A stretch of DNA of 58,057 bases. Source: a virus. Shown here one piece after another: positions 67 through 58,057 of this stretch (position 1 is the stretch's first letter; each line of letters opens with the position of its first letter). The position numbers and the translations under genes were made by a program. Under the pieces are notes generated by a model. It made no database searches and was not told the DNA's origin. It saw only the letters and a program-made list of their open reading frames with translations. The stretch lies in IMG/VR virus record IMGVR_UViG_3300030103_002567, positions 1 through 58,057 of that record, one strand, 5' to 3'.

Positions 67-92
67 CACAATAAAGCGAAGGGGGCAACGTT
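67..92 (+). promoter_or_regulatory. Plus-strand copy of the phage CACAATAA-N12-AACGTT element
   Basis: CACAATAA (67-74), exactly 12 nt, then AACGTT (87-92). This is the same two-box layout that precedes many minus-strand genes at the far right of the window, but on the plus strand. Reading rightwards it would produce RNA antisense to the 160-720 gene. The TATA-rich tail found after most copies is missing. It may be a binding site rather than a promoter. Confidence 0.5.
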
Positions 93-30811: not shown

Positions 30812-30829
30812 ATGGTAAAGTTATAGCCT

Positions 30830-31744
30830 ATGGACCCGTTTACACTTGCCGCAGGAGCGGTAAATATAGGAGGTATGATTGCTAGCACATTCGGTGCTAA
30901 AGCTCAGCAGAGAATAATCTCCAAAACCACCAAATCCCTAAAAGAAAGCGTTAAAGAACAAGAGTCATTAGCCAATATATTACGAACAGAAGAGCTAAGG
31001 ACTAGAACTGGCATTACTGATGAGGTTGCGGGTCGAATGTTAGCCGCTCAAGAAATGGGAACAAAAGGCCTCCAAGAGGCTGGAGCGAGAGCGGTGTTAG
31101 GGGGCGCAACTGCACAGGCTCAAGCCACTCTAGGCAATATGCTTGGGCTACGTCAGAATCTTATCGACCAGGAGCAGGCTAGACAGCAGGCTGTGGTTCA
31201 AGACAAGCAGAGAAGAGACCAAACTCTTGGAGCTATAGCTCAGCAGGAGGCAATAGGAGCTAGAGAGGCTCAAGCCGAAGCAGCAGCAGCCAAGGCTGGA
31301 ATGATTCAAAGCGCAGTAGGGGCGGGCTCTCAAATTGTTGGAGCAGCACTGAAAAATATACCGCTATATCAGAAGGGTCGCCAAGGTAGACTTGCTGAAA
31401 AAGCAATGACTAAGTTTGATGAAGCAGGAAGACCGCAAGAGGTTTTAGACGATTTGCAGTCTAGGGGGCTATATAGTCCTACAGCAGAGGGAGGATTTAA
31501 TCAAGCATCTTTCCTTGACGCTCTCAGCAAGACGGGCTCAAAGAAACTAAAAGAATTTCTTGACGCTGGAGAAGGTGATGCTCTAACTGGCCTTATAACA
31601 GGATATGGAGCGAAGGGTATTAATACATCTGATTTGTTTGGAGAGACTTCGGATGCTGAAGAAGGAGGAAAAGGTGATTTTGGGGAGTTCCTAAATGAAT
31701 TATACAAGCAATTTCAAGAAACAAAAACCGTAGGAGGAAGCTAA
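30830..31744 (+). CDS. Internal virion (ejection) protein, Ala/Gln-rich, 304 aa
   Basis: Hydrophobic N-terminus (MDPFTLAAGAVNIGGMIAST), then long helices rich in Ala, Gln and Glu (LAAQEMGTKGLQEAGARAVL; EAIGAREAQAEAAAAKAGMI), the composition of podoviral core proteins such as T7 gp14. A membrane-active segment near 160-180 (AVGAGSQIVGAAL) fits a channel-forming role in DNA entry. First of three genes coding the presumed inner core. Confidence 0.75.
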   Translation: MDPFTLAAGAVNIGGMIASTFGAKAQQRIISKTTKSLKESVKEQESLANILRTEELRTRTGITDEVAGRMLAAQEMGTKGLQEAGARAVLGGATAQAQATLGNMLGLRQNLIDQEQARQQAVVQDKQRRDQTLGAIAQQEAIGAREAQAEAAAAKAGMIQSAVGAGSQIVGAALKNIPLYQKGRQGRLAEKAMTKFDEAGRPQEVLDDLQSRGLYSPTAEGGFNQASFLDALSKTGSKKLKEFLDAGEGDALTGLITGYGAKGINTSDLFGETSDAEEGGKGDFGEFLNELYKQFQETKTVGGS

Positions 31745-39800: not shown

Positions 39801-42800
39801 GCAAACCCAGAATCAAAACAAGTTGCAACAGCACTTGAGTATGTTGAGTCTACTATAGAAAACTTCGGAGATAACGCTAGGTTAAACAAACACGACTTGA
39901 GACTTCTGCAGAAGTTAAGAGATGAGCTCAAGACAACAGAAAACAGGACAGGGGTGTTTGATACTGATGCCACTTTTGAGCAACAGCTTTCAGAATTCCT
40001 GAACAAAAAAGAGATGGAGGCTTTCCTTGGAATGTCTGAGCAGTTCAATAAGCTTGGCGACTATCATGACTTCATCAGTACGGTTATTGAGGGTGAAGCG
40101 CCAGGCGGATTTGTTTCTTATGTTCATCACAGTGCTTTGATTAACCCTAAGCCTGAGCTAAGTAACGATGCTTCTGGCAGGATGCAGGAGATTTATAACA
40201 ACTCTGCGCCTAAGCAAGCTAAGGCAGAGATGGAAAGAACCGAGGGAACGCCTAGTTTAATATTTGACCCGCTATACTCTTTTGGGGTGGCATCAAAAGA
40301 ATTGGCAGCCTATGCATTTATGCATTCTGCTGTAGAAAGAAACAACCAAATACAAAATCAGTTCAACAAAGATGGGTATGGAACTGATGGTATTATTCGC
40401 TCCGTCAAGCAGTATATGAATTCATATGTCAATACTGTTCTTAACAAGGTGTCAGCCGCTGACATGACTACTGGCCCACTATCTAATCTGAAAGCCATAG
40501 CATACAGAGGAGCACTAACAAACGTTAATAGGGGGGCTGACTTTGTAGGTAACGCTGCCCTCGGACTTATTTATGCCGACGTTGCGTTAAGTGGCGCTAG
40601 GCATCATGCAGTAATTAGGTCCTCAAATGGCATGAGCATGGAGAACGTATTGCTGAACATACAGTCTGGTATGATGGAGAGGTTGCTAGGTAGAACAAGT
40701 ACAGGTACTACAAGGGGGCAATACGGAAATAAGCTTTCTAATGACATTTTGAATGCTCAGTCTGGATATAGAAACATTATGGAGACTATCCTAAAGATTG
40801 GGACTTCTCCTCTTAGAATAGGTTCAGACGTAATAGGAAAGGTAGCTGACAGGATTATTACCGCTCCAGAGGACTCAATGAAGTATAGCTTATACCTTGG
40901 GTCTTTTGCTAAGGAGTTTAAAAAGCTTACTGGGGAATCACCAGATTTTGCTAGAATATCTGCAAACGACACGGAGTACATGACCGAGTACGCCAGCGCC
41001 ATTGAGCAGTCTAGATTAGCGGCTGATGAATTCGGAACTGCATTCATGACTAATATCACATCAATGGCAGACCTCCGATTAAGAACATCTGCTATAGATG
41101 AGACATTAAAGAATGGAGGTCCGTTGGCTCAGGCTTACGCTAAGATGGCAGACAGTGAAGCATTCAGAGGGATTATGTATGTGTTTAGCTCATTCCAAAT
41201 GAATGATGCTGACACTCAAAGGAAAGCTCTTTCAGATATGGTGAGAGATGGTAAGGTGAGTCCATTCGATGCTGCAAGATTATATGCAGCTGTGCACGGA
41301 AGACAAATAGCTTACTACTCATCAATACCGTTTTTCCAGTCAATGTTGAGAGACCTATATGATGATGAGGATAGAATCCCTAGTCGTGATGAGGTCTTAG
41401 GGATTGGTCCAGGTGGTGGAGATAGATACTGGTGGAGAAGCGGAGACCTTGATGTCTACTATGACGAAGCAAAGAATGGGCTTGAAAGAGGACTGTTTAG
41501 CTCTTTAGGTATATTTGATGCCAACGGGCTTACTGCTCAATTTGGTAGCTTGGCCTATGAGAAGACCATGGGGTGGATGGGATTCGGAGATGTAGAGACG
41601 GGTCTTGAATATACTGATAGACTTGGATACGCAAATCAAATATTAAGGTCAATGATGTTTGATGGAGCTGGTAATGAGTTCAAGAATACAGGAGACTTTT
41701 TCACGTCAGCCGTATCCTTGATGTCTGGCCCATACGGATACTTTACAAATATGATGACTCAAGGGATAGATGCTTACTATCATATAAAAGAAATTGGCAA
41801 GAATAGAGATGTAAGTGATGCTCAGCAAAACAGAGACCTAGAGATGTACACTAGGCAGCTTAATCAAGCTACGGCATTTTTCTCAGGCGGCATTGTTGAA
41901 TATGATACTCCTGAGGGCGGATACAAGGCTGAGTTTTCATTCGGTAACCCGTTCGATATAAGCAATGGATACATAGGATTCCCTGGTGGCATAACTCTTT
42001 TTAATACCAACCAGAGACAATACTTTAGAGACCTAACGTCTCAGGAGTTCTACGAACAGTACGACTATCAACAAGACTTTGTATCAAATCTTTATCGTTT
42101 TCAAAACACGCTCAATGATGAGCCAGTAATTAGCTACAGGGAACAGATTAAAAGAGATTACGCTGATGAGAGCCAAGCCATGGGGAAAACAACCATAACT
42201 AGAGGGTACTTGGTTGACGATAATATAGACTACAGATATACTTCAGAAATAAAGCTAGACCCCGAAGTTTATGATGAAGAGGCGGCAATAGCTTTTGCTG
42301 AAAGAGAAGGTGCTGTTTGGAATGCAGAATCGTACTCTTTATATACCAAATCAAAAGCTCAAAGTAAAGAGTTAAGGGATGCTATTAAAAATAACTATGT
42401 TCAAGAGCTACCACCACCCAAAACAAAAGGTGCTCACTGGTATGATATTGTTGAGGGAAGATGGTCGGGCCAAAACGGAGTGGCTGTTCAAAGAAACCTT
42501 GCTTTTAACGAGAACAAATCGAACATCGTAAACGCTGATGGCTCAACTAGGGAAGGGGTGTACTATAGGGAATATATTCAGCCGTTTGCCGACGTGGCAT
42601 ATACCCACTTTGCTCCAGCTCAGACTTATATAGTTAACGGCCCGCACGGAGGAGTTCCTGAAGACTCAAAGGGAAATCCCATACTTACTCAAAGAAGCTC
42701 TTATGCTGCCACTGTGCCAGTATACTTTACTTACGAGCAGCTTAACGCACTGAAGCTAGAGGAGTGGAACTTCTACAATGAACTAGACGGCAGATACACT

Positions 42801-43271
42801 ATGACTGTCGGAGAGGTTAAGAGCCTTTGGACGGACAGCAAAGTTCTAAATAGTGTCAATAAGCAGAAGCCTGTGTCTGACTATGGCTCTAGCCTTCTTA
42901 ACTACTCTGATGAGCACTTTAACACGGCTCTTGAGGACTTAGGGAATACATCTCTAGCGATGCCCGCCTTGCTACAGAACAAGGCTGACAATGAAACATT
43001 AACCATGGATGAGGTAAAGTCCCTAACGCCATATGGCTATATGCTTCATGACTATGCCGATACGGAAAGTGCTGAAGTTAGAGCTGATGGTGAGCTTAGT
43101 CTTGAAATGTACGAGTTCCTTTACGGAGACCCTGATAGAGGAGAAGACTTCTGGAAGAGCCCTCACTCAAACCTAACTGAGCTTGGAACTTTCTCAGGAG
43201 AATGGAATGAGTTAGTGCCACCTGTAGCTCCTTATGTAGGCCAACACAGTATCGGAAATACCTTAGACTAA
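33873..43271 (+). CDS. Giant multidomain internal virion protein, 3132 aa
   Basis: At 9.4 kb, 16% of the window. Seen in order: acidic/Gly N-terminus; Pro/Gln linker near 370-405; two Ala/Gly-rich, membrane-prone segments (about 693-736 and 839-910); charged coiled coil (about 1088-1123); Ig-like strand module with YNKDDKLIFTVKADADG (about 1228-1250); EEFAH motif (1380-1384); one TPR-like unit (about 1628-1673); Pro/Glu/Gln linker (about 1722-1756); a long helical C-terminal half with a segment (about 2180-2500) resembling large polyvalent-protein domains. Its place after two ejection proteins suggests it is packed in the head and injected. No RNA-polymerase or lysozyme motif was recognised. 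Confidence 0.8.
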   Translation: MIEKNSIFENEMFPGDDVVPGDETTGGETGGEVNISVAMESVAPMGRVGLPNDISGLPDSSKLILVGEQIPFYDGELAKNLIFGNVGLEDLTSRDVNISVATEEGLLSGETKDIKIPASEWGPTMQTTINAASEATGIPVGVFTRNLGLEGGAKSATTEGVNVMTYNKDDINSMYVSLPDPITATIAAQNANNLIQTSFGEGQEFKVYPSVSRGFSGEQIMSKTSEEMFNDLYTFMPFMPNNQKQEVIDMFLQASDTDKITIYKELFSLESYSETTDMYESLDDFAYPLHSAVVEAGVRFDQQMSTELNTMKGAIEKGLPVNEKSLLYNIYGMYDFEPILPPDQVSQGLDPESAGYPTQPMLIPDQEAGTTPTGQPGQVTKEEVKEMVVRPESAQEQGSGTPSFLPKDLNGYSIDEVEYMKARREFISDFLTPMYGEQWRKAFNNETKTMTALAQLDKDAKASGKTREEVLNEYVGFVLPSIDPEQFGDGKSAIPSFNVPGLKSYSPSREYYLRNLDEGVIQDLRKNMNMYQTLVTSEGGIFRKRDLSTDEAYELAKSTTAGIQGFDINEDGVVEDSEIRVAISSYQDAYVSELNYLKFQIENNTNLAIASVVMTDNVDLVDKGLLVPLEVGGVKYNVTPRQLQMFGYFSQQADNYSKRLLTIGDVPGGNIMTDLMNIRYKDQMALDEWARENPALALFSFAMEGITAGSFGTVGGAMSAMNSGTALLVDVLDFLTLDNIDGLEGLRNSLYADAKGFADLSKREAEATPYQGMGKYMTNYFGQYAALTDKAGNDLGLVVDSRGYLVDAETAAEWRNQFSDEQYKEILSTSEYERSAVGIFTTGLRTGTEIAMAIGIPTATYPIIFSQSYGRTYGELIDMGVTENAAAATAIFTSLLTVGSAKVLGVEGLIKGDNLIAKGVQKVLGQYGDDVIANINRLDAKTIAGISTEIMAHYGISVTAETTQELFDQIQKNFAKFLLTGEGDILVDSEQALDITILSTIFGAGGAKLTQPDRSNVFYDYFVSLAKTPNKLQSLLERGVQEGSITQEQANVAMIDAENVIKSGKGLEFVQTDVRYELILSQMQINNDMAEVAKMEDSELKNEKMAELEQAQENLNERKADALEYNTLREYTFDDPSILPSTISDRATKVNEDGSVTVVATLAEIFFNQGNQINLTVKSPRQSDMEIAEGAEAARSYTARSSTGAKIEVEGGNAKVTVQESLRVEGGAIVDVYNKDDKLIFTVKADADGVANIPLETLNDGSYSVRVVGQYDLDLKILEDIAEDVKTDVVPQGKTEAQIASDYQAASNQRAVDMASATGVPVVELTDAEYNTIVPAMMAEQGVDAPTKYKPEETSAMVIGGTIYINENKLPSMPTARLMEEFAHYALTTGNALTGADGNPVSVNFDGLIDILSGDPAFDNIMSPENVQRIQELYDEGNVSSETIAAFLGDLATSFETLSTETKSTVFSKLIKPFRDLVSPNTTTVGVDGSIEIKDDSAIPIRTDEDIKGAIQNIADMISNGGIIPAADFAAETLPTTEGTGPQADASIDNTGRLNNEINQGRINSENIDEIQNALSEDLRDSSDLTTLRENFAADALRDPANVDTYFEAYKESKAGIEAEQDAVATPEERAEASRNADIALANLKDGNVQGAIEAANEALDLNPNSANGQAMLDIGTAAVIRDMQDNGASNSEIAEELSNPKYDRSDVAKRAIDEMSGKASDTTPQDTDQEAMPEQEPQQPEQDPEQFEETPEPAGDVSVLRTRELLAQLNNPEFLDNISNPITKQFLMDVIRDFTNVPNDKLAQMGEQRMAELNGALAQALDGDFHPIYGTHISSMAFISAKQIESVVDNLPKLTADKLLLVRTELATLVSSTTKQIMGANDANQMLDKMRRMRATLIDIAVGNGGKTDFKDAFIQPFITSTSKFLENYYRMRDDAEAAMKPILRRKGAWSLLSSNKEVMSRMRIMLSLLQQEYLANPESKQVATALEYVESTIENFGDNARLNKHDLRLLQKLRDELKTTENRTGVFDTDATFEQQLSEFLNKKEMEAFLGMSEQFNKLGDYHDFISTVIEGEAPGGFVSYVHHSALINPKPELSNDASGRMQEIYNNSAPKQAKAEMERTEGTPSLIFDPLYSFGVASKELAAYAFMHSAVERNNQIQNQFNKDGYGTDGIIRSVKQYMNSYVNTVLNKVSAADMTTGPLSNLKAIAYRGALTNVNRGADFVGNAALGLIYADVALSGARHHAVIRSSNGMSMENVLLNIQSGMMERLLGRTSTGTTRGQYGNKLSNDILNAQSGYRNIMETILKIGTSPLRIGSDVIGKVADRIITAPEDSMKYSLYLGSFAKEFKKLTGESPDFARISANDTEYMTEYASAIEQSRLAADEFGTAFMTNITSMADLRLRTSAIDETLKNGGPLAQAYAKMADSEAFRGIMYVFSSFQMNDADTQRKALSDMVRDGKVSPFDAARLYAAVHGRQIAYYSSIPFFQSMLRDLYDDEDRIPSRDEVLGIGPGGGDRYWWRSGDLDVYYDEAKNGLERGLFSSLGIFDANGLTAQFGSLAYEKTMGWMGFGDVETGLEYTDRLGYANQILRSMMFDGAGNEFKNTGDFFTSAVSLMSGPYGYFTNMMTQGIDAYYHIKEIGKNRDVSDAQQNRDLEMYTRQLNQATAFFSGGIVEYDTPEGGYKAEFSFGNPFDISNGYIGFPGGITLFNTNQRQYFRDLTSQEFYEQYDYQQDFVSNLYRFQNTLNDEPVISYREQIKRDYADESQAMGKTTITRGYLVDDNIDYRYTSEIKLDPEVYDEEAAIAFAEREGAVWNAESYSLYTKSKAQSKELRDAIKNNYVQELPPPKTKGAHWYDIVEGRWSGQNGVAVQRNLAFNENKSNIVNADGSTREGVYYREYIQPFADVAYTHFAPAQTYIVNGPHGGVPEDSKGNPILTQRSSYAATVPVYFTYEQLNALKLEEWNFYNELDGRYTMTVGEVKSLWTDSKVLNSVNKQKPVSDYGSSLLNYSDEHFNTALEDLGNTSLAMPALLQNKADNETLTMDEVKSLTPYGYMLHDYADTESAEVRADGELSLEMYEFLYGDPDRGEDFWKSPHSNLTELGTFSGEWNELVPPVAPYVGQHSIGNTLD

Positions 43272-44135: not shown

Positions 44136-44377
44136 TACTTATCCATTGCCCTAACCATAGTATCGCCTAAAGTTTTGTCCACCCTACCAACGCCCCTGTA
44201 TATTTTCCTGGACGCAACCTTGACGCTTCTGATTTCTTCTTTTGTGGAATCGAGGCCTAGATTTGTATACATGATACAATCCATTTCTAACAGCGCATCT
44301 ATCTTTTGCCTGTCAGACCAAGTCTTATATCCGACTATCTTGTCAATTTTAGACTCTATGTTCTGATTCATTACCAC
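44135..44377 (-). CDS. Hypothetical protein, 80 aa
   Basis: Helical, mixed charge: IESKIDKIVGYKTWSDRQKI, then TKEEIRSVKVASRKIYRGVG. It overlaps the DnaA-like gene upstream by 29 nt and the next gene by one base. Possibly DNA-associated, by neighbourhood only. No motif recognised. Confidence 0.7.
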   Translation of the reverse strand: MVMNQNIESKIDKIVGYKTWSDRQKIDALLEMDCIMYTNLGLDSTKEEIRSVKVASRKIYRGVGRVDKTLGDTMVRAMDK

Positions 44378-44804
44378 AATTTATTGACTTATTGTCAAAA
44401 GATTCCAGCAACTTTTCAACAAACACTATTTTTTTGCCTATTGTTGTGAACGATTCTAATGATTCTAGTATACTTATGGCCCTGTTTCTTGAGCTTGTCA
44501 CCTGCTCACTTTGAACTATACTATCTGTATGGCCATAGTCGCTTACATAGGTCTCGTCAGTAGCCAATAAACTTTTGTGTGTTTCCATGCCATGTATCAC
44601 TGTGGCGTGATGCCTATTGAACAGCCTTGCTATCTCAGAAAGATTAGCGCCATACCTGTAGTATAGAATATTATACGACATACATCTGACTCGAACCAGC
44701 TCATGCTTCCTTGTCTTGCTTAATAGACTTTCTACACTAAGATTGTTTACTTCAGCAATCTGATTCCTCACTGCTTCGAATGTCTCTGTCCTGGTCGATT
44801 TCAT
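44349..44804 (-). CDS. Stand-alone DnaA domain IV-like DNA-binding protein, 151 aa
   Basis: Residues about 28-77 (SLLSKTRKHELVRVRCMSYN, ANLSEIARLFNRHHATVIHG) closely follow the DnaA-box-binding domain: basic helix, LSxxxIxxxF turn and HATVIH motif replacing DHSTVIHA. The AAA+ part of DnaA is absent. The C-terminal 70 residues are unrelated. It may bind host or phage DnaA boxes to hijack, block or mark an origin. In a polymerase-poor phage this could recruit host replication machinery. Confidence 0.82.
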   Translation of the reverse strand: MKSTRTETFEAVRNQIAEVNNLSVESLLSKTRKHELVRVRCMSYNILYYRYGANLSEIARLFNRHHATVIHGMETHKSLLATDETYVSDYGHTDSIVQSEQVTSSRNRAISILESLESFTTIGKKIVFVEKLLESFDNKSINCGNESEHRV

Positions 44805-49900: not shown

Positions 49901-50638
49901 TTAAAGTTCCTCCACAATATAATGATTCTCGATTGATTCGGTGGAGGATTCCCCGAAGAATCGATTGTATATATCTGATGCCTCCTTCACCTTCTGCTCA
50001 CCAGACCGCAGAAACTCATCCGAACAATGGAACATGCCCATCGCCAATGTATTCTTGTCAATAACCCAGAACTCCATAGGCTTACCAAACAATGTTTGGT
50101 AAATGTACGCCTGACTATCGTAGTTGAATTTATATGCAGAGTTCCTGAAACTACCGATTGATGACGTTGTCTTCAAGTCGATAATCTTATCACTAGATAT
50201 GATATCAGCCTTGCCCTTCCATGATAGCCCACATATATCCCCAACAGCAGGTTGCTCGTATACATTCCCCTCCTCATAGATGCCATCAAAGAAATCAAAG
50301 TTACCCTTCATAGCATCCACCATCGCATCCACCTGAGCCTGTTCATGACATAGCATAGCCATGCCACCATCCTTAGTGGCTTCCTTGTATACCTTAGTAG
50401 ACCTTGTAGTGGCATCAACACACTGTATCTCCTTAGCCTTCTCAGGCTCTAGTACAGACCAGTGAAAGTATCTACCCATGAGTAGAGCCTTGCTATCTGA
50501 ACTTCCCTTGCGAAACATGTTTGGATTGTTAAGTAACGCTGATATATCTGAGTTGGATAGCCATTGCTTACCGAACTCACCGTAGTACATCTCATCATCC
50601 TTCAGCTTGGACAGTATACTATTATCTCCTCTAGACAT
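49901..50638 (-). CDS. RecE-like PD-(D/E)XK exonuclease (DUF3799-type), 245 aa
   Basis: Signature GRYFHWSVLEPE (H59), then WKGKADIISSD (D145), the catalytic IIDLKTTSS (D154-L-K156) and a Gln helix YDSQAYIYQ (Q176): the RecB/exonuclease VIII core. It resects double-stranded ends 5'-3' to feed the annealing protein encoded just upstream (8-nt overlap), forming a Red-like recombination pair. Length is close to other phage versions of the nuclease domain. Confidence 0.9.
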   Translation of the reverse strand: MSRGDNSILSKLKDDEMYYGEFGKQWLSNSDISALLNNPNMFRKGSSDSKALLMGRYFHWSVLEPEKAKEIQCVDATTRSTKVYKEATKDGGMAMLCHEQAQVDAMVDAMKGNFDFFDGIYEEGNVYEQPAVGDICGLSWKGKADIISSDKIIDLKTTSSIGSFRNSAYKFNYDSQAYIYQTLFGKPMEFWVIDKNTLAMGMFHCSDEFLRSGEQKVKEASDIYNRFFGESSTESIENHYIVEEL

Positions 50639-51200
50639 TCTTCTTCAATTCTTTGATTACAGACTGCGATAACTTAGAGTACTTCGTTTCAAGAGTAACT
50701 ACCAAGTCATCAAACTTACCTTTGTTGGCCTGAACATACTTGACCACCTTGTCCCAGTTCTCATCACCAACCTTCAGCGTAGGCTTCTTGGCAGGTTTCT
50801 TTGGGGCAGGTTGACTGCTAGGCAGGTCTTCACCTGTCCACAACTGCAACCCTAGACCATGCATGGCAATCGCCTTAGCTGTTGACCTTTGGATTGTCTT
50901 GTTGACATCGAACGCAGTCATCGTTTCTACGCTCAGCGCTCGGTTACGATAATCCATGACAGGCAACATATCAATATGCTCTAGCCCATCGATAGTGATA
51001 CCCACCTTGACGTATGCCGTACTGCCATCACTGAAGAAGTTCAACCCAGTGTGCTCATGTTCGTACACTGTACGCTGTGCATTAGGATAATGCTTCTTGA
51101 CTAGTGACCAAGCATCGGCCCACGACACATAGTCGAGCTGACCTTTACGCTTGATGCGGTCTTTGAAATCTATACTACTTAACTTTTGGAAAACGCTCAT
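50631..51200 (-). CDS. Single-strand annealing protein, Sak/DUF1071-type, 189 aa
   Basis: LDYVSWADAWSLVKKHYPNA, LPVMDYRNRALSVETMTAFD and VNKTIQRSTAKAIAMHGLGL with QLWTGEDL match the DUF1071 (Sak-like, Rad52-related) annealing family. A Pro/Ala/Lys linker (SSQPAPKKPAKKP) joins a C-terminal helical tail that may contact a partner. It works with the adjacent RecE-like exonuclease in recombination and probably in replication restart. Confidence 0.9.
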   Translation of the reverse strand: MSVFQKLSSIDFKDRIKRKGQLDYVSWADAWSLVKKHYPNAQRTVYEHEHTGLNFFSDGSTAYVKVGITIDGLEHIDMLPVMDYRNRALSVETMTAFDVNKTIQRSTAKAIAMHGLGLQLWTGEDLPSSQPAPKKPAKKPTLKVGDENWDKVVKYVQANKGKFDDLVVTLETKYSKLSQSVIKELKKNV

Positions 51201-51495
51201 AATACTTATTTAATTTTGATTTAGCTGATTTAATAACGACCTCTGACTCACTATTATTGTGCAGTCGAGTATACTTATCCAAATATAATTGTTTAACTCC
51301 TTCTACCCAACCCAACTCGCCTAAAACCTCCATCTCAGACTCGCCAACAGGCCTTATCTTACTGTACTCAGATATCGAACATATAATTATATCTCCTTCC
51401 TTTGTTCTACGCACCTTGTAGCCCATAAAGAATGCACTGTCACTTGTTTTTATGCCATGTTTGGTGCTCATGGCTTCTTCGTATACCGCTACCAT
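51175..51495 (-). CDS. Hypothetical protein, 106 aa
   Basis: Starts MVAVYEEAMSTKHGIKTSDS, strand-containing core (IICSISEYSKIRPVGESEME) and a basic helical end. It overlaps the annealing gene by 26 nt and the upstream lipoprotein by 7 nt. No motif recognised; likely an accessory of the recombination set by co-transcription. Confidence 0.68.
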   Translation of the reverse strand: MVAVYEEAMSTKHGIKTSDSAFFMGYKVRRTKEGDIIICSISEYSKIRPVGESEMEVLGELGWVEGVKQLYLDKYTRLHNNSESEVVIKSAKSKLNKYYERFPKVK

Positions 51496-52681: not shown

Positions 52682-52990
52682 CTATTTTAAAATTTTAATT
52701 AAATACTCCTTGAGTATATCCTCAAGATACCCACGCTCGACCTCCTCTAGGAAATCAACAATCCATTCCTGCTGATAGTGACCACCCTCTAGGTAAGGGT
52801 TAGAACTATCTAGCACACGATACTGCAACCCCTCATCGTAGTAGAACTGCTGAAGTACATCGAAGTCTACTATCGTGGTTTCCCACTTTATGTTCTGTGC
52901 ATCGCCATTCCTTGTGAATTCAACCTCCAGGTCGACACAGTAATTTGGCTTATCTATTTCTTTGATTTCTTCAATGTGTAACTTTCTCAT
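52682..52990 (-). CDS. Hypothetical acidic protein, 102 aa
   Basis: First gene after the promoter-like element at 52999-53024, whose AACGTT box ends 9 nt before its ATG. Strand-rich, acidic (VDLEVEFTRNGDAQNIKWET; FLEEVERGYLEDILKEYLIK). By position it opens the operon that continues into the DNA-replication module. Family not recognised. Confidence 0.75.
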   Translation of the reverse strand: MRKLHIEEIKEIDKPNYCVDLEVEFTRNGDAQNIKWETTIVDFDVLQQFYYDEGLQYRVLDSSNPYLEGGHYQQEWIVDFLEEVERGYLEDILKEYLIKILK

Positions 52991-52998: not shown

Positions 52999-53024
52999 AA
53001 CGTTTAATTATTCTGTTTATTGTG
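52999..53024 (-). promoter_or_regulatory. Right-arm promoter element, copy 11 (drives the replication operon)
   Basis: Minus strand: CACAATAA-N12-AACGTT, followed by ATATAGATATG, the ATG being that of the 52990 gene. No further copy was seen downstream, so this one probably drives 52990 through 43268. Confidence 0.8.
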
Positions 53025-53027
53025 TTG

Positions 53028-53381
53028 TTAATCTAAGTCGCTATCCATGTCTGCTATTCTAATCTTCATCATCCTTTCGGTATCTGTGTTCTCTCGAATG
53101 AATCTTACTACTGCATCGTAGGTAGACGATAGTTTGTCTTTTGATGTGAAACATTGAGGTTTACTTATCATCTCTCCAAACTCAGCCTTACCTCCTTGTA
53201 TGGTGAAAACATACCCTAAACTTTCTATCTTCTGCACTACAGGTATCAACCAATCCCAAGAGGTGTGAAACTTTAGGTCTAGATAGCACTTGTTCTCTCC
53301 TAACACACCTTCGTAATCGAACCATCCATCTCGCCCAAGAGACATGCCCATAAACTCTGCTATTAACTTATTTTCTTTCAT
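53028..53381 (-). CDS. Conserved hypothetical protein, 117 aa
   Basis: NKLIAEFMGMSLGRDGWFDY and LDLKFHTSWDWLIPVVQKIE: the IAEFMG...HTSWDWL(I/M)PVVxKIE pattern is recurrent in Bacteroidota and phage genomes. No known activity. The stop is 3 nt from promoter copy 11. It overlaps its upstream neighbour by 4 nt (ATGA). Confidence 0.82.
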   Translation of the reverse strand: MKENKLIAEFMGMSLGRDGWFDYEGVLGENKCYLDLKFHTSWDWLIPVVQKIESLGYVFTIQGGKAEFGEMISKPQCFTSKDKLSSTYDAVVRFIRENTDTERMMKIRIADMDSDLD

Positions 53382-53809
53382 GATTCCTTCTTTTCAATTC
53401 CTTCTTGACTACACACCTCGTCGATGACACCGAAGATGACCTCCATTACATACTCATTGTTCAATGCTCTGCGAATGACATCCATCGCATCCTCATCACA
53501 GCAATCGTAGTTTTGTAAGACATCATCAATGTGCCAAAGGTTTGCCGTTTGAAAGCCCCTATCGGCTAACTCGTTCCGCAAATCCTCTGTGCTTAATTCT
53601 TTCATTCGCCCTCCAAGAATTGGGGTTTCCTCCAATTGGTCTGAAATAATTTGCTGATTTCGAAGAGACAAATCTTGAATCAGCATAACCTCTTCATCTC
53701 CATACAAGTCATCCATAGCCTCTTGCTTATCGCCATAGATGACTACCTCTCCAGTAGTAAAGCGTAGCATATTGTCTAACGCTCTGTTGTAAATAATATA
53801 ATCTTTCAT
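53378..53809 (-). CDS. Hypothetical acidic protein, 143 aa
   Basis: Start taken at MKDYIIYNRALDNMLRFTTG, 9 nt after the AACGTT box of promoter copy 10. Acidic and helical, with ELADRGFQTANLWHIDDVLQ in the middle and a Cys pair (CCDED) near 105. Ends in an overlap with the 117-aa gene. Not recognised; early host-directed role presumed from the arm. Confidence 0.72.
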   Translation of the reverse strand: MKDYIIYNRALDNMLRFTTGEVVIYGDKQEAMDDLYGDEEVMLIQDLSLRNQQIISDQLEETPILGGRMKELSTEDLRNELADRGFQTANLWHIDDVLQNYDCCDEDAMDVIRRALNNEYVMEVIFGVIDEVCSQEGIEKKES

Positions 53810-53817
53810 AATTGTAT

Positions 53818-53843
53818 AACGTTTAATCTTCAATTGTATTGCC
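53818..53843 (-). promoter_or_regulatory. Right-arm promoter element, copy 10 (variant first box)
   Basis: Minus strand: GGCAATAC-N12-AACGTT then ATACAATTATG. The first box is degenerate but spacing to AACGTT is preserved, and the ATG of 53809 follows at once. Lies inside the 28-aa membrane peptide gene. Confidence 0.6.
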
Positions 53844-53909
53844 CACATGATAAAGTATTCCGAAAATTATCGCTAGGCATACCACCATCAGTATAATTTT
53901 TGATATCAT
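53823..53909 (-). CDS. Tiny membrane peptide, 28 aa
   Basis: ATG 53909-53907 overlaps the stop of the upstream 110-aa gene (ATGA) and ends TAA 53825-53823. MISKIILMVVCLAIIFGILY is a single transmembrane helix, with HVGNTIED outside. Its 3' part overlaps promoter copy 10. Tiny membrane peptides in early arms often act as antiholins or host-membrane modulators; that is inference. Confidence 0.6.
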   Translation of the reverse strand: MISKIILMVVCLAIIFGILYHVGNTIED

Positions 53910-54238
53910 AGTAGGTCGTTTATGTAGTCAGTAGAAGCGCCCTCGAAGTCCCCATCCCTTGCAATATCTCCTAATATGTTTTCCAGTAGGTCGCAATCTA
54001 CATTGTCGCCTATATATCTATTAAATAGCGTCTCTAACTCCTCGGGCAATCTGTATTCAATGAAATCCTTAATGTCATCATCATCAAGTTCTTCCTCCTC
54101 TTGACCTAGTGTCCGACGTGCTTTGTTTTTTTCCTCATGCTCTTCAATGAAATCATCTTTGAGTGCTTCAATGGCATCCAATACATCGCTTTCATTTAGC
54201 ATATCTCTAATCTCTTCTTTTGATAAATCGTAATTCAT
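53906..54238 (-). CDS. Very acidic hypothetical protein, 110 aa
   Basis: About a third of the residues are Asp or Glu (TLGQEEEELDDDDIKDFIEY). All helical by eye. Acidic small early proteins frequently mimic DNA to inhibit host nucleases or restriction enzymes, so this is a good anti-defence candidate, though nothing in sequence proves it. Preceded by promoter copy 9, 23 nt upstream. Confidence 0.75.
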   Translation of the reverse strand: MNYDLSKEEIRDMLNESDVLDAIEALKDDFIEEHEEKNKARRTLGQEEEELDDDDIKDFIEYRLPEELETLFNRYIGDNVDCDLLENILGDIARDGDFEGASTDYINDLL

Positions 54239-54260
54239 AATTTCTATTGTTTAATTGTTT

Positions 54261-54286
54261 AACGTTTAGTTTTTAAGTTTATTAAG
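54261..54286 (-). promoter_or_regulatory. Right-arm promoter element, copy 9
   Basis: Minus strand: CTTAATAA-N12-AACGTT (variant first box), then a 22-nt A/T leader to ATG 54238. Directly preceded by the hairpin 54287-54308. Confidence 0.65.
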
Positions 54287-54308
54287 ACGCTGAGCGTACA
54301 CCCAGCGT
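54287..54308 (-). other. Hairpin between transcription units
   Basis: ACGCTG and CAGCGT form a 6-bp stem with 10-nt loop on the minus strand, directly ahead of promoter copy 9 and after the 75-aa gene. No T-run follows. It may insulate adjacent units or stabilise the upstream transcript end. Confidence 0.5.
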
Positions 54309-54336
54309 TTCGCCTATTGAAGGCTCATCAGTTAAT

Positions 54337-54564
54337 CTATCCGAACATCATTTCAATCCATCTTTTATGCTCTTTCTTATTGCGCCAACCATTTTGTTTC
54401 GCTTTCTTGTACATAAGTTCATATATAAGGTTATGAACTTCGTCACTTGATAGGACTTCTTTAAGCATAGATTCAGCATCTTTATGGCTCATACGTGTGT
54501 GGTCATAGTCCACCAATACATCATCCATAATGCAGTCAATATCGATTATATCTTGAATTTTCAT
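54337..54564 (-). CDS. Hypothetical protein, 75 aa
   Basis: MKIQDIIDIDCIMDDVLVDY is acidic; the C-terminus is basic and aromatic (KKAKQNGWRNKKEHKRWIEM). Bipolar charge with helical pattern. Upstream is CACAATCA with a shortened spacer before AACATT-ATG, a degenerate relative of the arm promoter. Not recognised. Confidence 0.68.
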   Translation of the reverse strand: MKIQDIIDIDCIMDDVLVDYDHTRMSHKDAESMLKEVLSSDEVHNLIYELMYKKAKQNGWRNKKEHKRWIEMMFG

Positions 54565-54584
54565 AATGTTTAATTTGATTGTGT

Positions 54585-54707
54585 CTACATTGTAGACATC
54601 CAGTAATCGGGCATATCTCCACTAAATACCATGTAGAAAATTTTTGCCACCCCATATAATACAGGCGAACCCATAGCCATACCGATAATTATATAAATTG
54701 TGTTCAT
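54585..54707 (-). CDS. Small membrane protein, 40 aa
   Basis: ATG 54707-54705 to TAG 54587-54585. MNTIYIIIGMAMGSPVLYGV then AKIFYMVFSG: a hydrophobic helix rich in Met/Ile/Gly, ending in a polar tail. It lies 12 nt after the 98-aa gene. Short size leaves some doubt, but it fills the gap between two coupled genes. Confidence 0.55.
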   Translation of the reverse strand: MNTIYIIIGMAMGSPVLYGVAKIFYMVFSGDMPDYWMSTM

Positions 54708-54719
54708 GTGTTGTTTAAT

Positions 54720-55016
54720 TTATCTGCTTACTACACTAGCAACCTTTGACGTTCCTGTGTTTATCATTCTTACTACATCCTCCCATTGCTCATCATCTGC
54801 GAACCATTCCAATTCGAAACGCTCGAAATCCATTTGCCAATTGGAAAGGGAGAACCCGTTCCCATGCAATCTAAAATCCCCTTGCTTATCTTTCTTAAAT
54901 GTAAGATGGTGTACATTATCGCACATACAGCCAATGGTCTTAAAAATTACCTCCCTTGCGCTTTCCTTGACCTCAATAGTCGGCGGGTCAAATATTAATT
55001 CTCTATACTTTCTCAT
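54720..55016 (-). CDS. Hypothetical protein, 98 aa
   Basis: FDPPTIEVKESAREVIFKTI, then CMCDNVHHLTFKKDKQGDFR and an acidic, Trp-rich segment (FELEWFADDEQWEDVVRMIN). The C-x-C and HH could bind metal. First gene after promoter copy 8. Family not recognised. Confidence 0.7.
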   Translation of the reverse strand: MRKYRELIFDPPTIEVKESAREVIFKTIGCMCDNVHHLTFKKDKQGDFRLHGNGFSLSNWQMDFERFELEWFADDEQWEDVVRMINTGTSKVASVVSR

Positions 55017-55035
55017 GTGTTCTATTTTATATATT

Positions 55036-55061
55036 AACGTTTAAGATTTTGGTTTATTGTG
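55036..55061 (-). promoter_or_regulatory. Right-arm promoter element, copy 8
   Basis: Minus strand: CACAATAA-N12-AACGTT, then AATATATAAAATAGAACAC to ATG 55016. The 5' end lies one base after the stop of the 55063 gene. Confidence 0.8.
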
Positions 55062-55062
55062 T

Positions 55063-55449
55063 TTAATCAATGTTTAATTCGTTGCACAATTCAAGACCAT
55101 ACCAATACACTAAATGATTCACTAGCGTTTCGGTATCAAAGTCTGTTCCTCTGTATCTAAGGCGCATCGCCTCTCTGCCAAGTCCATGCTTTTTTAACCA
55201 TTCAATCGAGCGATAATATCCTATTATGTCGGGATAATCTTCAATTTCTCCGAAATGTTCACGTTCAAAATCTTTGCAGATATTTACGGCTTCAAGTTCG
55301 CCTAATCCATGCTCTTTTAACCATTGGCTACTTTGGTAATATCCTATTATGTAGTAATCTTCATTGAACATTTCATGATGGGTTGTCAATCCATCCTTTT
55401 GACTTTCATTGATATGCTCTAGTAGTTCTGTTTTAATTGAATTTTTCAT
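55063..55449 (-). CDS. Protein with internal GYY-WLK-HGLG tandem repeat, 128 aa
   Basis: Two copies of a helical unit: IIGYYQSSQWLKEHGLGELE (about 34-53) and IIGYYRSIEWLKKHGLGREA (about 75-94), 41 residues apart. The flanking parts are helical and acidic. A repeat-built helical protein is suited to binding a protein partner. No known function. Driven by promoter copy 7, 19 nt upstream. Confidence 0.78.
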   Translation of the reverse strand: MKNSIKTELLEHINESQKDGLTTHHEMFNEDYYIIGYYQSSQWLKEHGLGELEAVNICKDFEREHFGEIEDYPDIIGYYRSIEWLKKHGLGREAMRLRYRGTDFDTETLVNHLVYWYGLELCNELNID

Positions 55450-55468
55450 GCTGTTTGTTTTATATATT

Positions 55469-55494
55469 AACGTTTAGTTTATTCTTTTATTGTG
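55469..55494 (-). promoter_or_regulatory. Right-arm promoter element, copy 7
   Basis: Minus strand: CACAATAA-N12-AACGTT, then AATATATAAAACAAACAGC to ATG 55449. It overlaps the last codons of the 55479 gene, so these bases are both coding and regulatory. Confidence 0.82.
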
Positions 55495-55694
55495 TCCTTT
55501 AATAAAAAATATTTTATACCTCCGCAGTAGATAGCCATTAATAGAATACCTAAGGCGCTAAAAATTAGGCTGTTTAGTTCTGCTGTATTTTCGCATGTAT
55601 CTACCCTCAATCCAGTAAGGAAAAAGAATACAAGGCATACATTTTTCAAGGCTCCGAAAAATTTAGCCGTTGCGCGTGTTATCTTATTATTCAT
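55479..55694 (-). CDS. Small membrane protein with two transmembrane segments, 71 aa
   Basis: Hydrophobic segments at about 15-29 (LKNVCLVFFFLTGL) and 41-62 (LNSLIFSALGILLMAIYCGG), with basic N-terminus and charged C-terminus. It follows the 55-aa gene by 5 nt. Two-pass early membrane proteins can block superinfection or alter host membranes, by analogy only. Confidence 0.72.
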   Translation of the reverse strand: MNNKITRATAKFFGALKNVCLVFFFLTGLRVDTCENTAELNSLIFSALGILLMAIYCGGIKYFLLKDTIKE

Positions 55695-55699
55695 AGCCC

Positions 55700-55867
55700 T
55701 TATATTTTATATCCAACGCAATAAACATCGTTATACTCGTTCAACATCTGCATTAATTTTTTATATGCTTTTGTTGCGGTTGGACGTTTACAAAATTGAG
55801 TCTTGAATAGGTATTCTCTACCGTCTTTTGTCTTATAGTAAAATATATATAGTTGTCTACTTTCCAT
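55700..55867 (-). CDS. Small basic protein, 55 aa
   Basis: ATG 55867-55865 to TAA 55702-55700. MESRQLYIFYYKTKDGREYL then FKTQFCKRPTATKAYKKLMQ is strand-strand-helix with basic Lys/Tyr face, the pattern of a small nucleic-acid-binding fold. It is immediately downstream of promoter copy 6 (20 nt). No family recognised. Confidence 0.7.
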   Translation of the reverse strand: MESRQLYIFYYKTKDGREYLFKTQFCKRPTATKAYKKLMQMLNEYNDVYCVGYKI

Positions 55868-55886
55868 TGTTTCTATTTTATATTAT

Positions 55887-55912
55887 AACGTATAGTTTTT
55901 AATCTTATTGTG
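55887..55912 (-). promoter_or_regulatory. Right-arm promoter element, copy 6
   Basis: Minus strand: CACAATAA-N12-TACGTT, then ATAATATAAAATAGAAAC leading to ATG 55867. One base differs in the second box. Confidence 0.78.
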
Positions 55913-55928
55913 TGCGTGAGTGTGAACA

Positions 55929-55949
55929 CCCCCCCGCAGGGGGGCGCAC
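55929..55949 (-). other. GC-rich hairpin ahead of promoter copy 6
   Basis: Six G/C pairs (CCCCCC 55930-55935 with GGGGGG 55939-55944) around GCA, extended by a GTG/CAC closing pair. It lies between the stop of the Cys-rich protein gene and promoter copy 6. There is no T-run, so it is an unusual terminator at best and may be a transcript end-stabiliser. Confidence 0.55.
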
Positions 55950-55963
55950 AAACAAACAAACAT

Positions 55964-56671
55964 CTAATGTTTAAGGATATATATATCCTTTTTCTTTTTA
56001 CCGCCAAACGTGCCACTACATAGACCACATTCAAGACAGGTTTTTTTCTTTCCACTTTCAGCGGACGCAGGGCAATTGAAACCCTCCGAAATTTCCTCAT
56101 CGCTTACAATGAATGAGCGGTAACCCCTAGCCCTAGCCTCTACCATATCTGCGAGGGTGTGTGTTGAGGCCATGAAGCGCGTTTCACTTACTTTGTGCCA
56201 TTGGTGCGTATATCCTGTAACCTTTGCCCTCACGTCATTAGCCAATCTAAAAAGCGCGTCACGTATTGGGGCTTCAAGCGTTACGGCTTCGCCATACGTC
56301 CCGAAGCGAATTAATTTAGGACTAACCTTGTTTTTTGCGAAGTCAATAAATTTCTTGAATTCCTTCGCGTTGAATTCTTTTAACGTGCCGTTATCTAGTT
56401 GTTTTTTAAGGCTTCTAAGTTTAGATTTCAACCCCCTTAGTTGGTCATGTTTGTGAGTATAGCACCCCCCAGACTTGCCGTTGTTTTGGTTGTAACTAAA
56501 GGGGCAATCCATACAATTTTCAGCATCAAGTGTCAAATCATATTTTTTTACCTGCTTTATGCTAAAGTGGTATGTCTGCAATACCAACCCGATACCAATT
56601 TTAGAATTTTGTGAGACTTTCAAGTCTAGCGAATGGATAACTTTCCCGTCTATGTATGCATAAATTTTCAT
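55964..56671 (-). CDS. Cys-rich conserved protein, possible Fe-S/metal-binding, 235 aa
   Basis: Two cysteine groups: C53-x2-C56 with C70 (ENCMDCPFSY, SGGCYTHK) and C200, C212, C215, C218 near the end (NCPASAESGKKKTC, ECGLCSG). A core strand motif is LIRFGTYGEAVTLE (about 120-133), then TGYTHQWHK. I recognise the family from phages and plasmids, where it has no known function. Seven conserved cysteines suggest an iron-sulfur cluster or zinc. Driven by promoter copy 5, 9 nt upstream. Confidence 0.82.
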   Translation of the reverse strand: MKIYAYIDGKVIHSLDLKVSQNSKIGIGLVLQTYHFSIKQVKKYDLTLDAENCMDCPFSYNQNNGKSGGCYTHKHDQLRGLKSKLRSLKKQLDNGTLKEFNAKEFKKFIDFAKNKVSPKLIRFGTYGEAVTLEAPIRDALFRLANDVRAKVTGYTHQWHKVSETRFMASTHTLADMVEARARGYRSFIVSDEEISEGFNCPASAESGKKKTCLECGLCSGTFGGKKKKDIYILKH

Positions 56672-56679
56672 GATGTTAT

Positions 56680-56705
56680 AACGCTTTATGTTTTACTTTA
56701 TTGTG
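56680..56705 (-). promoter_or_regulatory. Right-arm promoter element, copy 5
   Basis: Minus strand: CACAATAA-N12-AGCGTT, then ATAACATCATG. The second box has one change; spacing is exact. Confidence 0.78.
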
Positions 56706-56708
56706 CTA

Positions 56709-56975
56709 TTATCCAAAAATTGATTTCGGCATAGAGGTTTCAAGTTCCCATATCTTTTCAACGTGTTGAAACCACTTGTAAGTATCTTCAATATCCTTTA
56801 CATAACTTTCGAAATATTCAAGTTCTACTTCTTCTGCTTCCTGTATGTGTTCGTGCATCCCGTCTAGTTGATACACCATCCAGTCATGATATCTGTCTAA
56901 ATCAATACCCTCGTATATTTTACGGCATCTAGACTGTAACTGCCACATTCTTTCTATTTGTTGTTTGCGTTCCAT
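56709..56975 (-). CDS. Hypothetical helical protein, 88 aa
   Basis: Helical, mixed charge, with YEGIDLDRYHDWMVYQLDGM, an acidic helix and a Trp-rich end (DTYKWFQHVEKIWELETSMP). Four Trp in 88 residues is high. Preceded by promoter copy 4. No family recognised. Confidence 0.72.
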   Translation of the reverse strand: MERKQQIERMWQLQSRCRKIYEGIDLDRYHDWMVYQLDGMHEHIQEAEEVELEYFESYVKDIEDTYKWFQHVEKIWELETSMPKSIFG

Positions 56976-56983
56976 ATCTATAT

Positions 56984-57010
56984 AACGTTTAGTTGTTTTA
57001 CTTTATTGTG
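56984..57010 (-). promoter_or_regulatory. Right-arm promoter element, copy 4
   Basis: Minus strand: CACAATAA-N13-AACGTT, then ATATAGATATG, identical to the sequence after copy 11. Directly downstream of the terminator at 57020-57051. Confidence 0.8.
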
Positions 57011-57204
57011 TGTTTTTTGAAAAAATCCTCAGCGTTAACGACTACCTGAGGGGTCACCGTGCGCTAACTAGTATAGCGCCTTCCTGTTATCTACTCAAAA
57101 TACCTTTTTACTCTGCAGTCGTTACCTATACTTTTCTAAAGGTCTTAGGGTGTTATATAGTGGATAGGTCAATATTGCCATATTTCCAATGCACCCCGTA
57201 AAAG
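57011..57204 (-). ncRNA. Candidate small RNA (or 19-aa peptide gene) between promoter and terminator
   Basis: A minus-strand stretch of about 190 nt that begins at promoter copy 3 and ends at a terminator, with no conventional gene. It contains a hairpin GCGCTA/TAGCGC (57061-57079, 7-nt loop). The only frame after the promoter is MAILTYPLYNTLRPLEKYR (57181-57122), 19 codons. Either a phage small RNA with a protective hairpin or a leader-type peptide is possible. Confidence 0.5.
57020..57051 (-). terminator. Minus-strand terminator closing the small-RNA unit
   Basis: CCTCAG (57051-57046 on the minus strand) pairs with CTGAGG around a 13-nt loop containing GTTAAC, followed by ATTTTTT. The 6-bp stem is modest, but the T-run is in the right place. 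Confidence 0.65.
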
Positions 57205-57230
57205 AACGTTTCTTGTTTTATTTTATTGTG
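57205..57230 (-). promoter_or_regulatory. Right-arm promoter element, copy 3
   Basis: Minus strand: CACAATAA-N12-AACGTT. The first box overlaps the 3' end of the 98-aa gene. Feeds the short unit 57020-57204. Confidence 0.8.
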
Positions 57231-57514
57231 TCAAGTTTCACAAAATTTTCATCCCAATTGTCACAAAGAAAAACCAACTCTTCAGACGTGTCCGCCTTGG
57301 CTACAATATTAAACCCGTTAGCGGTTAGTAGATTGAAGGCTTGTTTGTCTGCACCCCCTGCGCTATATGAGAAAGGTACTGTAATGCTTTCGGTTTTATC
57401 TCCTGCCCACCTGCCAGGCTCGAAAATTTTAACCCTTGCGCCTCTATGGTTAGTAGGTCCTAAAAACTTCACTTTGATTTGTCTTAGTGTTTGAACGTCT
57501 GCTAAATTTTTCAT
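57218..57514 (-). CDS. Hypothetical protein, 98 aa
   Basis: Basic N-terminus (LADVQTLRQIKVKFLGPTNH RGARVKIFEPGRW), then strands and an acidic C-terminal part. The QIKVKFLGPTNxRGARVKI pattern seems familiar from phages of Bacteroidota, but I know no function. Its last codons overlap promoter copy 3. Driven by copy 2 (18 nt upstream). Confidence 0.75.
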   Translation of the reverse strand: MKNLADVQTLRQIKVKFLGPTNHRGARVKIFEPGRWAGDKTESITVPFSYSAGGADKQAFNLLTANGFNIVAKADTSEELVFLCDNWDENFVKLDTIK

Positions 57515-57532
57515 GATTTCCTTTTATATATT

Positions 57533-57558
57533 AACGTTTAGTTTTCTAGTTTATTGTG
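57533..57558 (-). promoter_or_regulatory. Right-arm promoter element, copy 2
   Basis: Minus strand: CACAATAA-N12-AACGTT, then AATATATAAAAGGAAATC to ATG 57514, here with an AGGA that could act as ribosome-binding site. Its first box supplies the TAA stop codon of the 76-aa gene upstream. Confidence 0.85.
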
Positions 57559-57781
57559 CGTTTTTTTCAGCGAATGAATCCAAGAATACCCGAGCAATCC
57601 AAAACAATTGCCCAATCATTGTAATGAGCCCAATGTTAACCCATAGTTCAAATTTTGCATCAATCCCTTTTGCGTTCCCAATGTTTAGGAAGGCTACTAA
57701 TACCGCAAGGGAAAAGAAGGTCGCCATCAATTGATTAAGGCTTGTTCGGAGTGTTCTAAGTTTTAAGTTTTTCATGTTCAT
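57551..57781 (-). CDS. Small membrane protein with two transmembrane segments, 76 aa
   Basis: Basic start (MNMKNLKLRTLRTSLNQLMA), hydrophobic segments at about 21-35 (TFFSLAVLVAFLNI) and 47-66 (WVNIGLITMIGQLFWIARVF). Met3 at 57775 is an equally good start. The stop TAA (57553-57551) is the end of CACAATAA in promoter copy 2. First gene of the leftward arm; a membrane takeover or exclusion role is inference. Confidence 0.72.
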   Translation of the reverse strand: MNMKNLKLRTLRTSLNQLMATFFSLAVLVAFLNIGNAKGIDAKFELWVNIGLITMIGQLFWIARVFLDSFAEKNAQ

Positions 57782-57804
57782 TGTTTGTTTGTTTACACTA
57801 TTAA

Positions 57805-57831
57805 AACGTTGGAGTGTGTGGTCTTATTGTG
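57805..57831 (-). promoter_or_regulatory. Right-arm promoter element, copy 1
   Basis: Minus strand: CACAATAA-N13-AACGTT, then TTAATAGTG and a 23-nt leader to ATG 57781. The outermost intact copy of the arm. Confidence 0.78.
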
Positions 57832-57882
57832 CTAGTATGATATTTTTTTTCACTTGCCTTAACTGCCGTCGTTCCCTATAAT

Positions 57883-57909
57883 AACGTACAAACAGGGGGC
57901 GGTATTGTA
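57883..57909 (-). promoter_or_regulatory. Degenerate right-arm promoter element
   Basis: Minus strand: TACAATAC-N13-TACGTT, both boxes with mismatches but the spacing kept. It would read through a non-coding 50-nt stretch into copy 1. Confidence 0.4.
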
Positions 57910-57985
57910 TAGAATTATAAAAAAAAGTGAATTTATTTTACCCTATTTCGTACGGGTGCGGGTGCGCGTTGGGGGTTGTGCCCTC

Positions 57986-58003
57986 TCTCGTTGCGTATTA
58001 TTT
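57986..58003 (+). repeat. Direct repeat copy 1 (18 bp)
   Basis: TCTCGTTGCGTATTATTT, repeated exactly at 58029-58046 with start-to-start distance 43 nt. CGTTGCG also appears on the minus strand near 113-121 at the other end of the window. Confidence 0.8.
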
Positions 58004-58028
58004 TGAAACGGGGGGGGTGGGGGTGGTG

Positions 58029-58046
58029 TCTCGTTGCGTATTATTT
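58029..58046 (+). repeat. Direct repeat copy 2 (18 bp)
   Basis: Identical to 57986-58003; the intervening 25 nt are almost all G after TGAAAC. Likely iteron-like or packaging-related if the region is non-coding as it appears. Confidence 0.8.
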
Positions 58047-58057
58047 AGAGGGGGGCG

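Follow-up and report, generated by a model that had tools for sequence, protein, structure and literature searches.

The stretch of DNA analyzed here (the window) is an IMG/VR virus record of 58,057 bases, in which the virion genes lie on the plus strand (~2-43 kb) and a minus-strand arm begins at the right end and continues to ~43 kb. Judged by portal and terminase matches, the window phage belongs among the podovirus-like phages of Flavobacteriia. Its nearest neighbor in the phage collection is MW202828, with a portal identity of 62.8%, and the next nearest in portal and terminase matches are Maribacter, Flavobacterium (elemo), and Cellulophaga phages. An initial annotation of the window had reported a repeated two-box element, CACAATAA followed after 12 or 13 nucleotides (nt) by AACGTT, at 11 minus-strand sites in the right arm. 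The occurrence of this element in the window, in related phages, and in bacterial chromosomes was investigated.

The exact pattern CACAATAA-N12/13-AACGTT matched the window eight times, compared with 0.00 matches expected from 100 shuffles of the window. Seven of the matches coincide with annotated minus-strand sites, all between 52,999 and 57,831, and one lies on the plus strand (67-92). The repeated element is real, as a shorter core, AATA-N15/16-CGTT, fits all 11 minus-strand sites. The sites at 55887 (TACGTT) and 56680 (AGCGTT) deviate solely at the edge of box 2, and those at 53818 and 54261 lack CAC in box 1 yet fit the core AATA-N15-CGTT exactly. Conservation extends over CACAATAA and CGTT; the AA preceding CGTT, which had been taken as part of the second box, is no more than a preference. 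With a two-box matrix built from nine full copies, the nine arm sites scored 24.5-30.2, and no other place in the window exceeded 21.1. The runners-up were both on the plus strand, at position 66 (21.1) and at 33716 in a late gene (19.6, spacing 11), and the maximum over five Markov shuffles was 16.0. In the 5.05-kb arm, the core pattern matched 12 times on the minus strand compared with 0.27 expected, and the remainder of the window held eight matches (whole-window null 2.5). With 12 arm matches against 0.27 expected and a best late-gene score of 19.6, matches in late genes are not as numerous as those in the arm.

The element precedes most of the early genes. The initial annotation had gone further and put it before nearly every transcription unit, but the genes at 55694, 54564, 53381, and 52676 have no copy upstream. 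The distance from CGTT to ATG was not spread over 9-24 nt, as had been proposed, but was clustered at 8, 18-19, or 22-23 nt, and one copy, at 57205, is followed by just a 19-codon open reading frame (ORF) and then a terminator (Table 1). No primary-sigma -7 box TAnnTTTG was present in the 120 nt preceding any of the 11 element-bearing positions in the 52.9-57.9 kb arm, in agreement with the earlier view that the element is unlike the Bacteroidota -33/-7 promoter. At the Sak gene (51200), one TATATTTG was found at -87. The accompanying proposal that the late arm uses -33/-7 promoters was not borne out, since TTG-N16..20-TAnnTTTG was observed 6 times compared with 4.25 expected and is thus unenriched. 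No sigma-54 signature (TGGCA-N6..8-TTGC, -24/-12) was detected near the arm genes.

Table 1. Putative promoter copies and an adjacent terminator-like feature in the window (basis: exact pattern, two-box matrix, core pattern)
Feature	Position	Strand	Downstream sequence or context	Basis
Putative promoter, first of the arm (CACAATAA-N15-CGTT)	57805..57831	-	ATG 23 nt past CGTT; gene 57551-57781	pattern, matrix, core
Putative promoter (N14 to CGTT)	57533..57558	-	ATG 18 nt past CGTT; gene 57218-57514	pattern, matrix, core
Putative promoter, no downstream ORF of 25 or more amino acids	57205..57230	-	19-codon ORF 57181-57122, then terminator	matrix, core
Intrinsic-terminator-like CCTCAG...CTGAGG, then ATTTTTT	57020..57051	-	between copies 57205 and 56984	sequence reading, fold
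Putative promoter (N15)	56984..57010	-	ATG 8 nt past CGTT, predicted near-leaderless; gene 56709-56975	pattern, matrix, core
Putative promoter (N14, AGCGTT)	56680..56705	-	ATG 8 nt past CGTT; gene 55964-56671	matrix, core
Putative promoter (N14, TACGTT)	55887..55912	-	ATG 19 nt past CGTT; gene 55700-55867	matrix, core
Putative promoter (N14)	55469..55494	-	ATG 19 nt past CGTT; gene 55063-55449	pattern, matrix, core
Putative promoter (N14)	55036..55061	-	ATG 19 nt past CGTT; gene 54720-55016	pattern, matrix, core
Putative promoter, box 1 TTAATAA, core AATA-N15-CGTT intact	54261..54286	-	ATG 22 nt downstream; gene 53906-54238	
Putative promoter, box 1 CAATAC, core AATA-N15-CGTT intact	53818..53843	-	ATG 8 nt past CGTT; gene 53378-53809	
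Putative promoter (N14)	52999..53024	-	ATG 8 nt past CGTT; gene 52682-52990	pattern, matrix, core
Candidate extra copy (CACAATAA-N15-CGTTATTA)	51235..51261	-	34 nt before Sak-like annealing gene 50631-51200	matrix 16.7, weaker
Weak candidate (ATACAATA-N16-CGTTATTA)	57883..57910	-	upstream of first copy	matrix, core
Plus-strand copy (CACAATAA-N14-CGTT)	67..92	+	faces minus-strand gene	score 21.1

The exact pattern was absent from 21 terminase relatives of the window phage. Therefore, conservation was sought in other branches, where the search of related phages recommended by the initial annotation yielded 54 distinct sites, upstream of early genes, in contigs of the same group. In the nearest relative, a 20-kb contig (L158/L227), the element stands before orthologous genes; the boxes are retained, and the spacer and the distance to ATG differ. 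A 39-nt stretch around copy 55036 (window 55,063-55,025) is identical in L227 but precedes a different gene there. Copies of the element seem to move between genes as cassettes. Nine contigs (L139, L150, L159, L168, L172, L186, and L228-L230) have distant homologues in common with the window, among them terminase (~45%), primase, and exonuclease. They carry the element repeatedly and almost exclusively on one strand, with ATG mostly 32-60 nt past the CAATAA start. Selection made CACAATAA and CGTT invariant over the 54 sites, and the two are separated by 14 nt in 29 of them and by 15 nt in the other 25. The base preceding CACAATAA was restricted to A or G by the search pattern, and this column is uninformative. 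The sequence 3' of CGTT is A-rich, frequently with an AAAC-like stretch ~8-12 nt on. The element was not found in the related isolate phages elemoF, phi38:1, phi13:2, Panino, and Gundel or in contigs G001-G006, and no comparable repeated pair emerged when pairs were counted de novo in G001-G006, elemoF, and the isolate phages. No published description of the phage motif was found in the open-licence literature. A different signal occupies the early arm of MW202828, the closest relative among isolate genomes, where a perfect 16-bp palindrome, GTGTCGTTAACGACAC, is repeated before many early genes (28746-36769) and a repressor is annotated; this palindrome, which has the same position in the arm, is operator-like.

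A scan of 84,980 genomes, one per species, with a three-part pattern taken from the phage sites gave at least 119 matching stretches. Among the 80 titles listed, 69 were Bacteroidota, 9 were named members of other phyla, and 2 were others. Bacteroidota make up about one eighth of the scanned genome set. The majority of the chromosomal matches stand shortly before a start codon. Curated models identified the adjoining genes as PorT, PorV2, PorQ, PorV (three loci), PorU (two loci), and the plug of the type IX secretion system (T9SS), and Pfam added PorZ and others; the genes adjoining the chromosomal sites are a T9SS regulon. In a class-level sample, 10 of 295 Bacteroidia genomes had at least six exact CACAATAA-N13..15-CGTTA sites, and none did for the pattern read backwards. 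An eleventh genome, G033 (Bacteroidales), had 23 sites compared with 0 in the control, with varied downstream genes. Four records titled Victivallales or uncultured bacterium, and thus outside Bacteroidota by title (L291, L300, L305, and L335), carry a near-identical element, CACAATAA...CGTTATTTGATTTAGAAAC.

An unselected test was performed with the upstream regions of 30 PorV, 30 PorT, and 30 rpsB genes from the class sample, chosen without reference to the motif. The full position weight matrix from the phage sites fits some host genes but was too strict overall because the hosts retain AATA alone, and therefore the core was tested. AATAA-N14..16-CGTT was found upstream of 8 of the 30 PorV and 7 of the 30 PorT genes and of none of the rpsB genes, compared with ~0.2 in shuffles and 0 in reversed sequence. 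For AATA-N15-CGTT, the corresponding counts were 5/30 for PorT, 4/30 for PorV, and 0/30 for rpsB. Upstream of Flavobacterium PorU, AATA-N15-CGTT was present in 19 of 30 genomes (null 0.15) and spacings of 14, 16, and 17 in none, the CGTT end being mostly 9-11 nt before ATG. As the test pattern was refined on the same kinds of sequences, these counts are descriptive, and their strongest parts are the sharp spacing and the rpsB control.

The element was compared with promoters reported in Bacteroidota. A transcription-start map of Flavobacterium psychrophilum contains the motif SM6, whose -10 region holds a conserved CGT box and which was assigned to an extracytoplasmic function (ECF) sigma factor; among the genes it precedes are PorU and GldN, as well as a homologue of PG0189 (a PorM/PorN partner) and an ECF/anti-sigma pair (PMC9723704). 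In Porphyromonas gingivalis, the ECF sigma SigP, which acts together with PorX/PorY, binds por promoters (PMC4800418 and PMC8265659). The element resembles SM6 in its CGT(T) -10 box, found in 11 of 11 window sites and, by selection, in the 54 phage sites, and in its company of PorU, as upstream of the Flavobacterium genes above, and other T9SS genes. It differs in that the -35 box of the phage copies is extended to CACAATAA, a spacing of 16 is allowed, and the genes that follow are phage early genes. The likeness to the SigP promoters lies in an ECF sigma at por genes, with PorT and PorV carrying the element in other Bacteroidia. An AATA -35 element at a fixed distance from CGTT occurs in the phages (N15/N16) as it does before the host T9SS genes. 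Primary-sigma promoters of Bacteroidota (-33 TTTG/-7 TAnnTTTG) likewise have two boxes before genes, but both box sequences differ. The Bacteroides thetaiotaomicron motif PM2 (PMC7366714) is likewise of a -10/-30 alternative-sigma type and is set apart by its link to oxidative stress.

Because its -10 box, its geometry, and the host genes it accompanies are those of the SM6/SigP class, the element is read as an ECF-type promoter, and we consider it likely that each copy serves host RNA polymerase carrying a SigP/SM6-type ECF sigma. This is the one of three options in the initial annotation, host polymerase with an unusual sigma factor, that was well supported, by the same boxes and spacing before T9SS genes of Bacteroidota and by the gene set and CGT box shared with an experimentally mapped ECF motif; the other two, a virion-carried polymerase and a regulator-bound leader, fared poorly and are weighed below. 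In the proposed mechanism, CACAATAA (core AATA) would act as the -35 element and CGTT as the -10 element, AATA and CGTT being 15 or 16 bp apart. After phage entry, host polymerase with the ECF sigma would bind AATA(A) and CGTT and probably start ~7-12 nt past CGTT, near the A-rich stretch, where the longer copies often have AAAC, which would give leaders of 0 to ~15 nt. From the three classes of ATG distance, the transcripts are predicted to be near-leaderless or to have very short leaders. Short or leaderless mRNAs, which had also been suggested earlier, are plausible because the CGTT of Flavobacterium PorU stands at a similarly short distance from ATG. Genes without a copy of their own would be reached by read-through, and the candidate copy at 51,261-51,235 could drive the recombination and replication genes. 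With a promoter before most genes of the arm, early expression would depend on a host alternative sigma and not on the primary sigma. Early timing and the order of events are judged from gene content.

Several points weigh against an ECF promoter of this class. The comparison with SM6 covers the -10 box and the gene set. The published SigP consensus (PMC4800418) is vague and shows no visible match. An early phage programme that relies on a conditional sigma would be unusual. Most Bacteroidia genomes are at background for the exact CACAATAA form, and host copies usually retain AATA alone. A spacing of 16 is about as frequent as 15 in the phages, whereas Flavobacterium PorU shows 15 only. Finally, related phages of Flavobacterium, Cellulophaga, Maribacter, and Tenacibaculum isolates lack the element. 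Because the related phages of Flavobacteriaceae isolates are without it, the relevant hosts may be elsewhere in Bacteroidota.

An element repeated solely in the early arm of one phage group could also be a promoter for an RNA polymerase or sigma factor that the phage encodes or carries in its virion, and close relatives that lack the element or carry another repeat fit phage-specific turnover. In crAss-like phages, early transcription is carried out by a virion RNA polymerase. The window phage resembles these in being a Bacteroidota phage with an early arm opposite the virion genes, but no polymerase motif was found here and the promoter also occurs in host chromosomes. A private polymerase leaves the same boxes and spacing before Bacteroidota T9SS genes unexplained. 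Domains of Sigma70 region 2 (PF04542) and region 4 (PF08281) were absent from 12 element-bearing phage records, some of them fragments, with positive controls; the polymerase profile PF00940 had no match in the phages, its control being likewise silent. The giant late-arm protein of 3132 amino acids (33873-43271, plus strand), whose ORF closes the virion arm, was considered as an RNA polymerase and rejected. It has no DxDGD motif, no domain above cut-off, no relative in the Protein Data Bank, and no tblastn match in the phage collection. We regard transcription by a phage polymerase or sigma as very unlikely. That the boxes are instead the operator of a host or phage transcription factor controlling nearby promoters of another type gains from the palindrome and repressor of MW202828, as operators do occur at this place in the arm, and from AACGTT being itself palindromic. 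The element as a whole is asymmetric, however, its AA before CGTT varies among the phages, and the arm genes have neither a sigma-A nor a sigma-54 signature nearby, which leaves an operator improbable.

The boxes lie very near ATG, at distances tightly set within each phage, and a hammerhead-like motif abuts copy 54261; both would suit a signal in the RNA leader (5' untranslated region) bound by a regulator or the ribosome. Yet it is the box-to-box spacing that is fixed, at about two helical turns, whereas the distance to ATG varies (8, 19, and 22-23 nt in the window and up to 35 nt elsewhere), and copy 57205 serves no ORF of 25 or more amino acids. No conserved pairing between the boxes was seen by eye, no covariation test being run. 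A leader signal also leaves the host chromosomal copies unexplained, and these fit the mapped CGT -10 box. It is likewise very unlikely. A closer alternative accepts an ECF-type promoter and assigns it to an ECF sigma other than the T9SS one, or to several with overlapping recognition. The authors of the SM6 study warned that the motif is possibly read by several ECF sigmas (PMC9723704), and the genes downstream of the sites in G033 are varied; on the other hand, it is T9SS genes that recur among the named targets of several unrelated genomes. We regard this assignment as possible rather than probable.

Phages usually begin infection from strong primary-sigma promoters or by means of a polymerase that they bring along. 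If promoters of the SigP/SM6 type are indeed used, a phage group that copied an ECF-sigma promoter many times would represent a new mode of transcription takeover, and its success would be tied to an envelope-stress or secretion regulon. Tentatively, most early genes of these marine and freshwater Bacteroidota phages could be under the host T9SS/envelope ECF sigma, and early infection might be restricted to, or most rapid in, cells engaged in building their secretion and gliding surface. The surface state of the host would then gate infection via transcription as well as via receptors, and anti-sigma factors would act as a switch of phage resistance. With the phage copies, the sequence recognized by the T9SS sigma of Bacteroidota (AATA-N15/16-CGTT) becomes better defined, which aids the prediction of host targets. 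The copies could also serve as compact promoters for tools in organisms in which the standard ones do not work.

Several RNA features were observed beside the element. A hammerhead-ribozyme-like motif on the minus strand (54281-54337) consists of CTGATGAG, a 4-bp stem II, CGAAAC, a strong stem III, GTC, and stem I ATTAA/TTAAT. It remained below the Rfam threshold (RAGATH-1 hammerhead, E 0.59); tRNA alone among the known RNA families reached the curated threshold in the window. Box 1 of copy 54261 overlaps the 3' end of the motif, and the predicted cleavage after GTC would fall inside this box. Similar motifs were seen in L172 (from sequence), L213 (19949, minus), L222 (15100, minus), L224 (10679, plus), and L210 (17894, minus), which suggests a recurrence of hammerheads within the group. 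A conserved GGGGAGGC...GTCTCCCC hairpin stands between one element copy and ATG in L159 (8954), L168 (737), L150 (11664, minus), and L172 (11895). Copy 57205, its 19-codon ORF, and the terminator-like hairpin with a T run (57015-57200, minus strand) resemble a separate short transcript, possibly for a small RNA or a leader peptide. A structured RNA between 57199 and 57014 was rejected, as its fold was no better than that of shuffles (z -0.25).

Elsewhere in the window, a protein with the C-terminal domain (domain IV) of DnaA is encoded at 44349-44804 on the minus strand, and a phage-encoded GroEL at 1965-3719 on the plus strand. Near the right end of the contig, a 21-nt repeat (TCTCGTTGCGTATTATTTTGA / ...TTTAGA) is located at 57986-58049.

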